From: Terriglobia bacterium | Lineage (GTDB): Bacteria; Acidobacteriota; Terriglobia; Bryobacterales; Bryobacteraceae | Length of the DNA: 64,000 nucleotides | Assembly (NCBI GenBank): GCA_025350105.1 | Contig: JANXYJ010000183.1 | Location: 1 to 64,000, forward strand | Direction of reading: 5' to 3' | Part shown: positions 27,132-32,178 of the stretch, piece after piece | Layout: each line of letters begins with the position of its first letter | Position numbering within the stretch: the stretch's first letter is position 1 | Position numbers and translations under genes: made by a program | The notes under the pieces: generated by a model | Told to the model about the DNA's origin: nothing | The model's input: the letters and a program-made list of their open reading frames with translations, nothing else | Database searches by the model: none

Positions 27132-28379
27132 TTATAGAAGTGGATAATCCGTGTAGCCCTTCGCCCCCGGCGTGTAGAACGACGCTTGATCTGGCGCATT
27201 CAGCGGGGCATTTTTCTCGAAACGCTTCACCAAATCCGGATTGGCCACGTAAGTAGATCCGAACACGATGGCGTCGGCCTTGCCCGCGGCCAGGGTCTGA
27301 TCGGCTTCTTCTTTCTTAAAACCGCCGCCCACCAAAAGCGTGCCCGCGAAAGCTTCGCGCAATACCGTCTCGGATCCGATGCCGGTGCGCATCACATGTA
27401 AGTAAGCAGGCTTCAACGCCGCATACGCTTTCGCCAAAGCGATGAATGTGGGCAGCGGATCTTCATCGGCGATGTCATTGAACTTCATCCCGGGGCTCAG
27501 TTTCATGCCCACTCTACCTGAGGATCCAGCGGCGGCGATCATCGCCGTTGCGGTCTCCACCACAAACCGAATACGGTTTTCACTGGACCCGCCGTACGCG
27601 TCGGTTCGATGATTGGCGCTGGTGCTCAGGAACTGATTCGGCAGATAGCCGGAAGCCGAATGCAACTCCACGCCATCGAAACCCGCGGCCAGCGCGTTGC
27701 GCGTAGCTTGTGCATACTCATAGATGACAGACGGAATCTCGCTCAACTCAAGCGCACGCGGCATGTCATTTGGCTGCATCCCCTGCGCATCGGTCCACAT
27801 CTGCCCGGCCGCGCGAATGGCTGATGGCGCTACTGGCGCGTCAGGAATGGTTCGATTGGCCGAGTGCGTAATCCGCCCCACGTGCATGATCTGCGCAAAA
27901 ATTGTTCCGCCGCGCGCGTGCACCGCATTTGTCACTTTGCGCCATGCAGCAATCTGCGCGTCATTGTAGATTCCAGGGCTGCGCGCATAACCCAAGCCCA
28001 TCGCGCTGGGGGCGATGCCTTCGGAAATAATCAAGCCGGCGTCGGCGCGTGCGCCGTAATATTCCGCCGCCAGTGGCAAGATCACGCCTTGCGCATCCGC
28101 ACGCGAACGCGTCATGGGAGCCATCACAATTCGGTTACGCAGCGAAAAATCGCCAATGTTTATAGGTGAAAAGACATTCATGTGTCTGTTGGATGCAGCA
28201 TGGACGATATCGGGCGCAGCTAAGATTTCATGTCCGGCACAATGGAAAACCGGCAGACGCGGATATTTGGGATAGGCTGGATCCGCCAGCGCCAATTCAC
28301 ACAAATAGAAAGCGTTGCCGCGATCAGACCGTACCGTTCTGCTATGCGCGCAATCGCCGCATAGGCCTATTGCCCGCAC
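27132..28379 (-). CDS. Old Yellow Enzyme-type ene-reductase with an extra Cys4 N-terminal domain
   Basis: About 415 aa if read from the GTG at 28379, whose G overlaps the TAG stop of the cytochrome c gene (TAGTG), a coupling arrangement. Residues 1-50 hold four cysteines (C7, C10, C27, C47) in a pattern known to me from free-standing ~55-residue proteins of Acidobacteria. From Met67 an OYE begins: INIGDFSLRNRIVMAPMTRS, FAQIMHVGRITHS, GVELHSASGYLPNQFLS, LVGGGFKKEEAD, ending with the FMN-binding FGSTYVANPDLV. The internal ATG at 28181 has no ribosome site. OYEs reduce activated C=C bonds with NAD(P)H and FMN. It lacks a signal peptide. Confidence 0.85.
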   Translation of the reverse strand: MRAIGLCGDCAHSRTVRSDRGNAFYLCELALADPAYPKYPRLPVFHCAGHEILAAPDIVHAASNRHMNVFSPINIGDFSLRNRIVMAPMTRSRADAQGVILPLAAEYYGARADAGLIISEGIAPSAMGLGYARSPGIYNDAQIAAWRKVTNAVHARGGTIFAQIMHVGRITHSANRTIPDAPVAPSAIRAAGQMWTDAQGMQPNDMPRALELSEIPSVIYEYAQATRNALAAGFDGVELHSASGYLPNQFLSTSANHRTDAYGGSSENRIRFVVETATAMIAAAGSSGRVGMKLSPGMKFNDIADEDPLPTFIALAKAYAALKPAYLHVMRTGIGSETVLREAFAGTLLVGGGFKKEEADQTLAAGKADAIVFGSTYVANPDLVKRFEKNAPLNAPDQASFYTPGAKGYTDYPLL

Positions 28380-28702
28380 TATTGATTGAGTAACGGCACA
28401 TCCTTCAGCGCAGGCGGCGCCGGGCGCGAAGACAGATACGCGTGAATGTCTGTCAGATCGGCATCGGAAACGATCTTGGCCGTAAATGGAGGCATGCCAC
28501 CCGCCGGTTTGCGCACGTAGGCGATCAACACCGCCACTGCGGGCGGCTTGGTTCCAATGCGCGGCCCGCTGCTGCCTCCTTGCCCGTCATGCCCGTGACA
28601 GGCCGAACAGTACAGCTTTTCAAAAACCACCTTGCCGTGTTCGGCATTACCCTGCCCGTACCCAAGCGAAGCCAGAAACGTGATGATCACTAGTCTCTTC
28701 AT
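28379..28702 (-). CDS. Secreted class I cytochrome c
   Basis: About 107 aa with a short signal peptide (LVIITFLASLGYGQ). A single heme c site CSACH (Cys32, Cys35, His36) and the axial Met70 in PAGGMPPF define a small c-type cytochrome, followed by the usual ADLTDIHAYLSSR C-terminal helix. It would accept electrons in the periplasm. It lies 33 nt downstream of the exported thiamine-diphosphate enzyme gene, pointing to a role as its electron acceptor. The stop codon overlaps the start of the OYE gene. Confidence 0.93.
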   Translation of the reverse strand: MKRLVIITFLASLGYGQGNAEHGKVVFEKLYCSACHGHDGQGGSSGPRIGTKPPAVAVLIAYVRKPAGGMPPFTAKIVSDADLTDIHAYLSSRPAPPALKDVPLLNQ

Positions 28703-28735
28703 TTGTTCTACCGTCCCTGTATTAACATCCCTGCG

Positions 28736-30682
28736 TCATCTTCCTTGCGTAACGACATCAATCAAATACGGCCGCCCGCTCTTCACCACTTCCACCCCGC
28801 GCTTGATCGCCGGGCCCAGCTCCGCTGGATTGGTCACCGGGCCAAACGCCTCCACACCCAGGCCCTGGGCCACCTTTGCGTAATCGATGTTCGGATCTGT
28901 GATCGTAGTGCCGATGCCGCATTGCTCAAAGCCGCGGTTATGCTGGCCCGCCATCCGCTGCAGTTGCATGATCTCCTGGTGATAAGCCCGGTTGTTGTGC
29001 ACCAGAATCAGAATCGGAATGCGATGATGCGCCGCGGTCCAAAGCGCGCCGGGCTGGTACATCAAATCACCATCAGGCTGAATGGAAACCGATAGGCGCC
29101 CGTACTTCTTGTTGGCCAGCGCCGCTCCCACCGTCGCCGGAGCAAGATAGCCCACACCTTCGCCGCCCGCGCCGCCAATGTAGTGGTAGTGCTTGTTCAT
29201 GTCCCACAAACGCTGCGGCCAATTGCTCACCCAAAAGCTGTCGCTCACCAATGACCAATCTTCATTCTTCACGGCGCCGTACAGCTCCATCGACATACGC
29301 GCGGTGCTAATCGGGCTAGAATCCCACCCTTGTGATGCCGCCACACGCGTTTGCTCCAAGGCTTGTTTTTGCGCCTCGCCCAGCTTCTTGCCGCGCTCGG
29401 CCAGAGTGCGTTTGCGGTCGTCGGTCAGCTGGCGCTTCACGGCCTCGATCAAAGCTGGCAACGACGCTTCGCCGTCCGCCGCTACGCTCATATCTACTTC
29501 GGTGTTTCTAAAGAATGTCTGGTAGTTACTCTTAAAGAACAGATCGTTCGCGCTGATGCTGATCAGCTTGGCGTCAGCTTTGGTGATGGAGCGCGCTTCG
29601 GTCTTGAAGCGTCCGCCCAGCGTGTGAATCGAGCCATAAAAATCCCAAACCTCCAGGCCTACAATCAGGTCGGCTTGTTGCAACACAGGGCGTTGGCGCA
29701 AGGTTTGATTCAGCGGATGGCGATTGGGGAAATTCATGCGCCGCTTTTGATCCACCACGGCGCACTGCAGCAATTCCGCCAACTCCACCAGCAACTGCAC
29801 ACCCTTGGGCGTGCGTGCGGCTTTGCCCGTCAGAATCACGGGATTTTCGGCAGCCAGCAGCATCTTCGCCACTTCGTTTGCTGTGCCAGCGTCGATGGCC
29901 GGCTGCACATTCACCGGCAGTTTTGGAATATGGCCCTTGAAGTTATCCGGATACGGATCTTCCTGCAGATCTTCATCGCACACCAGCATCACCGGCATCT
30001 GCGGAGCCATGGTGGCCAAATGATACCCGCGCACCATCGACTCGCCCCAATGTTCCAGCGACCCGGGGTTATCGTCCCACTTGGTGTAATCGCGCACCAT
30101 GGCTGCCGCGTCCTGCACGCTGTGCACCCACTCCACGTAACTGCGCCGCTCACTGGAATCGCGGCGGTTGCCGGCCAGCACAATCATCGGAGCCTGATCG
30201 CAATAGGAGTTGTAAATCGCCATCGCCGCGTGCTGCGTGCCTACCGTGCCGTGCACCGCGGTAACCGCCGGTTTGCCTTCGATCTTGGCGTAGCCGTTGC
30301 ACATCGCCGCTGCGATTTCTTCGTGATTGCACGTAATGAATTCGGGCTTGTTCCCGCCATAGCTCACCAGCGATTCGTGAATGCCACGAAAGCTGGACCC
30401 CGGATTGGCGATGAAATACTCCACGCCCAAACTCTTGATCACGTCGATCATGTAGTCCGCGCCGGGACGTTCAATGAAAGGCGGCGCGCCACTGCCGGCG
30501 TTGCGTTCGGCCTCCACCTGGGCCGCGCTGGGCGGCGCAGCTCCACGTGTTGGAGCCGCTGGCGCCTGCGCGTTGGCCTGCTGCGGCGTGCTGACCAACG
30601 CCGTGGCTCCGGCTGCCGCGCCTACCGCCGCGCCTTTCAAAAACCCACGCCGTGCAAATGAAGTTTTAGTTGATTTGGCCAT
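28736..30682 (-). CDS. Tat-exported thiamine-diphosphate enzyme (acetolactate synthase/benzoylformate decarboxylase family)
   Basis: About 648 aa. AGGAGGGCATATC precedes the ATG. The N-terminus has a Tat signal (FARRGFLKGAAVGAAAGATA) ending near NAQAPAAP. The body has all three domains of the ThDP family: N-terminal pyrimidine-binding part with the catalytic Glu in FITCNHEEIAAAMCNGYAK; middle domain starting MLLAAENPVILTGKA; C-terminal PP domain with the GDL...NN motif (QPDGDLMYQPGALWTAAHH, then ILVHNNRAYHQ). Export of a folded ThDP enzyme is unusual and fits Tat. First gene of an operon with a cytochrome c and an OYE. The substrate is unknown; an oxidative 2-oxoacid decarboxylase passing electrons to cytochrome c is a plausible role. 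Confidence 0.88.
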   Translation of the reverse strand: MAKSTKTSFARRGFLKGAAVGAAAGATALVSTPQQANAQAPAAPTRGAAPPSAAQVEAERNAGSGAPPFIERPGADYMIDVIKSLGVEYFIANPGSSFRGIHESLVSYGGNKPEFITCNHEEIAAAMCNGYAKIEGKPAVTAVHGTVGTQHAAMAIYNSYCDQAPMIVLAGNRRDSSERRSYVEWVHSVQDAAAMVRDYTKWDDNPGSLEHWGESMVRGYHLATMAPQMPVMLVCDEDLQEDPYPDNFKGHIPKLPVNVQPAIDAGTANEVAKMLLAAENPVILTGKAARTPKGVQLLVELAELLQCAVVDQKRRMNFPNRHPLNQTLRQRPVLQQADLIVGLEVWDFYGSIHTLGGRFKTEARSITKADAKLISISANDLFFKSNYQTFFRNTEVDMSVAADGEASLPALIEAVKRQLTDDRKRTLAERGKKLGEAQKQALEQTRVAASQGWDSSPISTARMSMELYGAVKNEDWSLVSDSFWVSNWPQRLWDMNKHYHYIGGAGGEGVGYLAPATVGAALANKKYGRLSVSIQPDGDLMYQPGALWTAAHHRIPILILVHNNRAYHQEIMQLQRMAGQHNRGFEQCGIGTTITDPNIDYAKVAQGLGVEAFGPVTNPAELGPAIKRGVEVVKSGRPYLIDVVTQGR

Positions 30683-30862: not shown

Positions 30863-32041
30863 CTACGGTGTGCAATTCAACGGCAGAGCGGTCAGCGCAT
30901 GCTCATCCGGGAAGCTATACGCTCCGTCAATCGCATTCGATGGACTGGTGCGTGCAAACCATTGCAACAGCGCTTCGGATTGTGGATGGAACAGGAAGCC
31001 GTCATACCCGGCGATGGGAATGGAGAAGCCTACGATGGGATCGCCCACCTCCAGCACCGTGGTGCAGCCGTATTGCCCCGCGCTTGGCGTGGTCCACGGT
31101 GGAACGATGTTGGTGATAAATGGATCGTTGGCCCATTCGGCGATCTCGTGCGTCATGCCGTGGATATCGGCGATGTTGGTGTTGCGGAAGATACCCGGTT
31201 CCAGCCAGGAACCGAAGCCCCAGGTCTGTATGCTTTCCGTTCCATCGGCATCGTGAGTCTCGTTGCTATAGGTGTGGAACCCCAGAACGCAGCAACCGGC
31301 CAACGGATTTGTACTAATTGTGGAGGAAAGCACCATATTATGGGTGGCGGCCACTACGAACGCGCCAAAATCGGTGCGGCTGGAAACGATGGATTCCATT
31401 ACATAGGCGAAAAAGTTCTCGTCCACTACCGCCAGCTTTTGTCCGTTACTAAAGTGGTAGACCACGCCGTAGTCGTCCGGTACATTCAGCACCACTTCTT
31501 TCAATACTTTGGCGTTCAGATTGAAATGCCAATTGCGCGCGGCCGGCATCATGTTCCAGAACTGCGCTCGCTGTTCGGCGTCTATAAACTGGCCATCGCC
31601 GGTAGCATAAGTATTGCTGTTGAACAGCGGACTGTCCGCCATTTGATAGGTTGTGTCCACGGATTCAAACGACTCGCCGTTGCCCATATTAAGCGTCAAG
31701 GGAATGAAGTCGACGTTGATTTTAGAGCCCTCTCCGGTCGCGGGATCGGTGCCAGCCATGATATAGGGGTAAGTCTTGCCTTGGTATTGGAACGTGCGCA
31801 GAAAATTCGGAATCGAATTGATCCCCGGAATCGCGCTGGATGCAGTAGCGGCGCTGCCGCCCGATCCGCCCACTGCTGCGGCCGCGAACTTGCTGCCGTC
31901 CCGGCTGGGGCCACCCCCTCTCACTTTTACGTAGTCGTCCAAAGTACCGGTGAGCTCAATCACCCGGGTTGCGCCGAATACGCTCAACGGCGCCAGCGTC
32001 GCGAAGCACAGATACACGGCCAGTTTGTTTGCAATCTTCAT
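30863..32041 (-). CDS. Secreted protein of unknown function with an HEIAE motif
   Basis: About 392 aa. AGGAGAAAA precedes the ATG at 32041. Signal peptide (LAVYLCFATLAPLSVFGA). The mature protein is hydrophilic with a Gly/Ser/Ala-rich stretch (residues 50-70), a segment GFHTYSNETHDADG, and IADIHGMTHEIAEWANDP near residue 295. The HEIAEWANDP element resembles the THEIxE..xDP block of some exported putative metalloproteases (HExxE rather than HExxH), so a zinc peptidase is possible but unproven. Monocistronic; divergent from the 2-oxoacid dehydrogenase operon. Confidence 0.6.
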   Translation of the reverse strand: MKIANKLAVYLCFATLAPLSVFGATRVIELTGTLDDYVKVRGGGPSRDGSKFAAAAVGGSGGSAATASSAIPGINSIPNFLRTFQYQGKTYPYIMAGTDPATGEGSKINVDFIPLTLNMGNGESFESVDTTYQMADSPLFNSNTYATGDGQFIDAEQRAQFWNMMPAARNWHFNLNAKVLKEVVLNVPDDYGVVYHFSNGQKLAVVDENFFAYVMESIVSSRTDFGAFVVAATHNMVLSSTISTNPLAGCCVLGFHTYSNETHDADGTESIQTWGFGSWLEPGIFRNTNIADIHGMTHEIAEWANDPFITNIVPPWTTPSAGQYGCTTVLEVGDPIVGFSIPIAGYDGFLFHPQSEALLQWFARTSPSNAIDGAYSFPDEHALTALPLNCTP

Positions 32042-32178
32042 TTTTCTCCTCTGCACGCGGCAACATCATTTCGATCCGATGTTAAAGCGAATTTAGAGCA
32101 GAATACACCTGAAGTACCATCAAAGCAAGATATTTTGTTTGACTCAAACTCGCTTTCATCTGGGCCTCCCAGGACGTC

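Follow-up and report, generated by a model that had tools for sequence, protein, structure and literature searches.

The question raised by this locus is what an enzyme dependent on thiamine diphosphate (ThDP), a cofactor whose enzymes are treated as cytoplasmic catalysts, does when it carries an export signal and its gene is followed, after a gap of 33 nt, by the gene for a cytochrome c. The locus lies in a 64,000-nucleotide stretch (the window) from the 4.74 Mb draft genome of a Terriglobia bacterium (Acidobacteriota, Bryobacterales-like), where both genes stand on the minus strand; an earlier note on this DNA had described them so, and open reading frames (ORFs) and sequence bear it out. 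The same note had proposed a periplasmic oxidative decarboxylase or lyase that hands electrons to its own cytochrome c. Of this proposal, the pairing of an exported-type enzyme with a cytochrome has become firm, while the function is kept here as the best available interpretation. On balance, we lean towards a two-gene extracytoplasmic redox module, in which the exported ThDP enzyme would oxidatively decarboxylate, or cleave, a 2-oxo compound and pass the electrons to the co-encoded cytochrome.

The N-terminus of the ThDP protein, read directly, is a signal of the twin-arginine translocation (Tat) type (MAKSTKTSFARRGFLKGAAVGAAAGATALV..ANAQA), as had been noticed before; it begins SFARRGFLKGAAVGAAAGATALV, includes RRGFLKG and ends in ANAQA. 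As TatC is also encoded in the genome (9.2e-59), the enzyme has both the twin-arginine signal and the genomic TatC expected of a Tat substrate, and it is predicted to be one. A twin-arginine motif with a small or hydrophobic stretch, scored with a script of our own instead of a signal-peptide predictor, was found in 70 of 74 rows of the clade of homologues bearing such signals (hereafter the exported clade), and the four misses comprise two proteins cut by a contig end (L076 and L080) and two whose open frames run far upstream, where the wrong place was read (L052 and L060). Behind the signal, Pfam TPP_enzyme_N, TPP_enzyme_M and TPP_enzyme_C follow in order with 83.8, 40.7 and 77.6 bits, all above their cut-offs, and both the DC-family domain and the activating-Glu and Mg-diphosphate motifs are present. 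The ThDP core, which had been called complete, is so in substance (E121, D537-G538 and N563-N564), although the usual GDG has lost its first Gly and reads PDGD in the window protein and xDGD in 12 aligned rows. Residues E121, H144, D537, G538, N563 and E570 are kept in all 74 exported members, and N564 in 73 of them. Moreover, E121, S96 and H144 align with residues 47, 26 and 70 of benzoylformate decarboxylase, which we take to be active-site positions. Because the catalytic residues are kept and aligned in this way, the ThDP enzyme is not a degenerate copy. Among the residues that separate the exported clade from five signal-less relatives are Q150, H568, E570 and M572, the last three of which, just after the NN motif, presumably fall in the region lining the substrate pocket in relatives.

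The best sequence and fold matches in the PDB were benzoylformate and 4-hydroxybenzoylformate decarboxylases or variants of them, including a designed variant. In the Foldseek comparison the benzoylformate decarboxylases ranked at the top with about 20% identity and an rmsd (root-mean-square deviation) of 11-13, values from which active-site geometry is not inferable. None of the 25 best NCBIfam models listed reached its own cut-off for the ThDP protein, the nearest being PRK08327 (248 bits, cut-off 456), while the benzoylformate decarboxylase model NF005485 gave 168.5 bits against a cut-off of 493.

The second product had been described as a secreted monohaem cytochrome c, and its hydrophobic start, single CSACH haem motif and Pfam match agree with that description. 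C32, C35 and H36 are present in all 61 partner cytochromes and M70 in 60 of them, and the partner has the CXXCH motif, the distal Met and the export signal (judged by eye, for the window protein) that would mark a class I c-type cytochrome. Two haem motifs occur in four of the 61 (L037, L038, L040 and L114), and the Caballeronia record labels the downstream gene 'c-type cytochrome'. Elsewhere in the window's genome, a cytochrome that belongs to the same subfamily (51% identity) is encoded 1 nt before a gene for a pyrroloquinoline quinone (PQQ) dehydrogenase (L153, G000:C34, 3628-6004). PQQ dehydrogenases feed electrons to cytochromes c, so this subfamily is also seen beside an enzyme class that uses cytochromes c as acceptors.

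How regularly the two genes go together was assessed for 74 exported members longer than 500 aa, by reading 900 nt downstream of each ThDP gene in all three frames of its strand (L036, L039 and L046 were dropped as lying on the same contigs as L048, L104 and L074, and L091 as a fragment below 500 aa). A cytochrome c of the same subfamily lies directly downstream in 61 of these 74, and all six proteobacterial loci (L038, L042, L043, L044, L114 and L115) are paired. Such a cytochrome was found downstream of none of five close relatives without a signal (L105 and L116-L119) and none of 14 distant ThDP relatives; a Fisher test of 61/74 against 0/19 gives 1.2e-11, with the reservation that related loci are not independent. 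A later set of 16 regions held ten exported members, five signal-less relatives and one repeat (L171, which repeats L045 and was left uncounted). It was drawn from 26 ThDP matches, the others being already included, fragments, a copy with stops, or the gene on G543:C231, which is paired by its coordinates and stands outside the counts. Six of these ten exported members are paired, or five of nine without L170, which, with its start unread, was placed among the exported members on the strength of 54% identity, and none of the five signal-less relatives is (L179 with only 176 nt of downstream room). The earlier note had named homologues that lack signal peptides and never neighbour a cytochrome c as a finding that would refute it; its central idea withstands this check, as signal-bearing homologues are usually paired and the close signal-less ones are not (0 of 10).

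The exported members form one clade with an SH-aLRT (Shimodaira-Hasegawa-like approximate likelihood ratio test) support of 94, in a quick tree with some long branches that was built without L027 and L005. When neighbouring genes were clustered, the cytochrome came out as the commonest, at 51 loci, while the next cluster had 14. Pairwise distances of the enzymes and of their partner cytochromes are correlated with an r of 0.78, which none of 2000 shuffles reached (best 0.20), though shared species history contributes to this value, even with several paralogues per genome included. Thus, the two-gene core of ThDP enzyme and cytochrome c is real, conserved and far from a chance association. At L062, L067 and L073, two exported ThDP genes follow one another in tandem, with genes for cytochrome c next to them. 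At L115, on a Novosphingobium plasmid (7761-12881), the ThDP gene is succeeded by genes for two small cytochromes c and for a TonB-dependent receptor, an arrangement that hints at an imported substrate. A fusion of the two proteins, considered as proof of contact, was dropped as a line of evidence, because four long open frames (L052, L060, L106 and L113) extend N-terminally only; no ThDP-cytochrome fusion was seen, in material that was not searched systematically for one.

The distribution of the family is sporadic, with several paralogues in many carrier genomes, as follows from the match counts in the genome samples. Matches better than 1e-100 occur in 16 of 150 genomes of the same bacterial family, whereas any ThDP match at 1e-3 occurs in 149 of them, mostly to ordinary ThDP enzymes, and in the phylum sample a match at 1e-60 was found in 14 of 396 genomes. 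The window's genome itself holds four close members, namely the window copy and three others at 55-57% identity, and the nearest named relatives by ThDP protein are Bryobacterales metagenome bins with 77-78% identity (L035). Members are also present in Rhodospirillaceae, Beijerinckiaceae and one gammaproteobacterium, and on plasmids of Caballeronia and Novosphingobium; the pair as such extends over several families of Acidobacteriota and over alpha-, beta- and gammaproteobacteria.

What the pair might do is suggested by the signal-less relatives, which are 32-37% identical to the exported enzyme. Neighbours were counted at 73 exported loci (including one repeat), in flanks that for the most part reach up to 5-6 kb and are cut short where contigs end. 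Three of five signal-less loci (L117, L118 and L119) have a gene for an aldehyde dehydrogenase close to the ThDP gene, versus one of the 73 exported loci (L074, on the other strand); an alpha-hydroxy-acid oxidase gene is present in two of five versus none, and carboxylate uptake genes were found near three annotated signal-less relatives. With aldehyde dehydrogenase and hydroxy-acid oxidase genes nearby, the signal-less form looks like a decarboxylase of 2-oxo acids followed by aldehyde oxidation, along a route from hydroxy acid to oxo acid, aldehyde and acid. At the exported loci, the cytochrome c takes the place of the aldehyde dehydrogenase after the ThDP gene. An economical reading is that the exported enzyme would form the same ThDP intermediate as the signal-less form, but have it oxidised by the cytochrome. 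ThDP and Mg would be loaded onto the enzyme in the cytoplasm, and the folded enzyme would be exported by Tat. Outside the inner membrane, a 2-oxo compound (a 2-oxo acid most likely, perhaps an aromatic one) would react with ThDP to give a carbanion or enamine, and this intermediate would be oxidised with water to a carboxylic acid, plus CO2. The cytochrome c encoded alongside would take up the electrons and deliver them to the respiratory chain, and no NAD (nicotinamide adenine dinucleotide) or coenzyme A (CoA) would be needed outside the membrane. A more specific version, put forward tentatively, is a ThDP oxidoreductase free of flavin and Fe-S, the carbanion of which would be oxidised in two one-electron steps directly by the dedicated c-type haem; we know of no precedent for a ThDP carbanion oxidised into respiration directly by a c-type haem.

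Several points weigh against such an oxidative, cytochrome-coupled function. A downstream cytochrome is missing from 13 of the 74 exported members and from four of the ten fetched later. Eight of the 13 belong to the window's own genus (G000, G089, G119 and G139), and these eight include a copy in the window's genome (on C195) with its start cut by the contig end, as well as L079, counted as unpaired with only 367 nt of downstream room; at the tandem loci L067 and L073, the cytochrome comes after the second ThDP gene. In addition, a second ThDP family, 26-31% identical, has an RR motif at the start in 11 of 13 members read (L021, L023-L029, L031, L032 and L034, from the window's bacterial family; starts such as MQELVRGYLDRALSRRGFVEGLSRLGFTAAAAQ), which may be an unusual twin-arginine signal. 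Since these RR-bearing distant relatives are unpaired, a ThDP enzyme that may be exported does not always have a cytochrome partner; and with pairing in none of the 14 distant relatives, the cytochrome is a mark of the exported clade and not of every possibly exported ThDP enzyme. Among the exported loci, no substrate gene is consistently linked. The AlphaFold model of the enzyme is poor, with a mean pLDDT (predicted local distance difference test) of 66, and nothing seen in the protein pointed to a flavin or Fe-S site, for which no proper test was made. Moreover, benzoylformate decarboxylase is not a redox enzyme, and E570 is, by its spacing, presumably the counterpart of the pyruvate decarboxylase Glu that aids protonation of the intermediate, which would favour a non-oxidative decarboxylation.

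The gaps in the pairing were followed in a survey of 28 genomes (8 + 20), in which coordinates were matched by hand and three ThDP candidates were scored per genome of the phylum sample, so that further ThDP genes are possible. At a threshold of E 1e-13, set after the list had been viewed, unpaired cytochromes are present in eight of nine genomes that hold a listed ThDP gene lacking a cytochrome downstream, and in none of 19 genomes whose listed ThDP genes are all paired. A counterexample is G543, with two unpaired ThDP genes and no unpaired cytochrome at 1e-8. The extra cytochrome stands just upstream of a ThDP gene in G073 and G134, and beside the PQQ dehydrogenase in G000, where there is also a fragment on C203; weaker unpaired matches (8e-13 to 9e-10) occur in G433, G177 and G265. 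Unpaired copies of enzyme and cytochrome thus tend to co-occur per genome, which is supportive of dispersed pairs and no further than that.

The first rival explanation is that the exported enzyme is a non-redox lyase that yields an aldehyde without any acceptor, while the cytochrome serves a separate periplasmic dehydrogenase, for example of the PQQ type, that oxidises the product. We consider it rather unlikely, yet it keeps real weight because the closest solved relatives are non-oxidative decarboxylases, because E570 is retained throughout the exported members, and because PQQ-type dehydrogenases occur in 6 of the 73 exported loci, with one more beside the same-subfamily cytochrome at L153. 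Six loci are few, however, against a co-diverging cytochrome after the ThDP gene in 61 of 74 members, and the close signal-less relatives do without this cytochrome, although a dehydrogenase encoded elsewhere in the genome would still fit. Less probable still, and in our view improbable, is an exported ThDP oxidase containing flavin, in which flavin adenine dinucleotide (FAD) in the middle domain would pass electrons to the cytochrome c as in pyruvate oxidase. Several DC-family enzymes bind FAD in that domain, glyoxylate carboligase and a CDH entry are also among the fold matches, and Tat export would suit a flavoprotein; but benzoylformate decarboxylases rank first by sequence and by fold, and the pyruvate oxidase model NF006377 reached 83.2 bits against a cut-off of 742. 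Finally, a frozen accident that left ThDP gene and cytochrome as ordinary neighbours with no functional coupling is very improbable: the window's genome does hold 52 PF13442 matches at E 1e-3 and some exported ThDP genes do stand alone, but the same cytochrome subfamily follows in the same order across Acidobacteriota families and at all six proteobacterial loci read, and all ten close signal-less relatives lack it.

The proposed redox module of two genes is narrower than the operon of three genes, ending in an Old Yellow Enzyme, that the earlier note had drawn. Four coding parts make up this part of the window, the last two sharing one open frame (Table 1); the ThDP enzyme and the cytochrome c stand as separate genes, while a further small CxxC frame runs in frame into the Old Yellow Enzyme.

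Table 1. Features of the ThDP enzyme locus, with positions in the window
Feature	Position	Strand	Basis
Enzyme of 648 aa, ThDP-dependent and of the DC family (benzoylformate-decarboxylase-like), bearing a Tat-type signal	28736..30682	-	ORF, Pfam, NCBIfam and PDB matches
Putative Tat-type signal peptide region (RRGFLKGAAVGAAAGATALV ... ANAQA)	30557..30682	-	read from sequence
Monohaem cytochrome c of the partner subfamily, predicted to be secreted, 107 aa; haem motif CSACH, Met70 of axial type	28379..28702	-	Pfam Cytochrome_CBB3, 2.5e-12
Small CxxC frame of 66 codons, running in frame into the Old Yellow Enzyme downstream	28182..28379	-	similar sequences in 11 of 25 other genomes
NemA-like Old Yellow Enzyme, probably a neighbour outside the module	27132..28181	-	Pfam Oxidored_FMN, 1.3e-70

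The third ORF comprises 415 codons (28379-27132, minus strand), and the overlapping TAGTG that had been reported is indeed present at 28379, though only as the first possible start of this ORF. Because the first 66 codons match a separate small protein, the overlap is assigned to the start of the small CxxC frame, and the Old Yellow Enzyme proper would start at about the ATG at 28181. Oxidored_FMN, which reached its Pfam cut-off, covers residues 69-394 of the 415-aa ORF, while the NCBIfam model for NemA (NF007899) gave 318.9 bits against a cut-off of 403. In five of the 11 genomes with matches to the small CxxC protein it has a frame of its own of 64-72 codons, so to judge from these homologues the combined frame may have arisen by a recent fusion or may hold two cistrons. 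No match to it was found in the other 83 ThDP loci, and it is outside the conserved unit. The Old Yellow Enzyme was likewise rejected as a member of the unit. A homologue lies near the ThDP gene in only 2 of 84 loci, namely the window and Caballeronia L114, where it stands beyond an oppositely oriented LysR gene, and in four relatives with the ThDP enzyme the best matches have 33-42% identity, each over partial length. Of the gene trio for which the earlier note had proposed a search in other genomes, the ThDP and cytochrome pair recurs, but the Old Yellow Enzyme is not supported as its third member. It is probably a local neighbour outside the module, which may share a transcript with the pair in the window's genome. 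At 30863-32056 (minus strand), immediately upstream of the ThDP gene, a protein of 397 aa is encoded that probably has a secretion signal and to which no Pfam or NCBIfam model matched at 1e-3.

Among the matches listed in the open-licence literature, none described a ThDP enzyme that is exported and paired with a cytochrome c, which agrees with the remark in the earlier note that its author knew of no described system of this form. The enzyme fold and the cytochrome class are known, and it is the location and the pairing that are new. If the proposal is true, carbon-carbon cleavage would join the reactions by which the periplasm supplies respiration directly, with neither NADH nor CoA, in carriers that include soil bacteria known chiefly through metagenomes. 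Proteins named only 'thiamine pyrophosphate-binding protein', such as that in the Caballeronia record, would gain a function, and enzymologists would have a radical-capable cofactor newly paired with haem c.

Among known systems, benzoylformate and 4-hydroxybenzoylformate decarboxylases are alike in the three TPP domains, in the alignment of E121, S96 and H144, and as top matches by sequence and fold, but differ from the exported clade, which has a Tat-type signal and a cytochrome c partner and shares only the low fold-alignment identity given above. The pyruvate oxidase PoxB, a cytoplasmic, FAD-dependent enzyme that passes electrons to quinone through a C-terminal membrane segment, would be alike in the proposed conversion of a 2-oxo acid to an acid and CO2 with electrons going to the respiratory chain. 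In contrast to PoxB, the window enzyme ends five residues after the TPP_C match (at 643 of 648) without a PoxB-like membrane-binding extension, and it has an export signal and a cytochrome c. Adjacency of an oxidising enzyme gene and a cytochrome c gene is also seen in the lao-cccA-ridA cluster of Gluconacetobacter diazotrophicus, where the cytochrome is proposed to act in electron transfer (PMC5053998); the enzyme there is an L-amino acid oxidase and not a ThDP enzyme. A parallel in location is offered by periplasmic cytochrome c-linked dehydrogenases such as the PQQ dehydrogenases and D-malate:cytochrome c oxidoreductase (PMC12294151), which resemble the module proposed here in oxidising small organic compounds outside the cytoplasm with a c-type acceptor. 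The catalytic part of those periplasmic dehydrogenases is a quinoprotein or a flavoprotein, whereas here it would be a ThDP carbanion enzyme.

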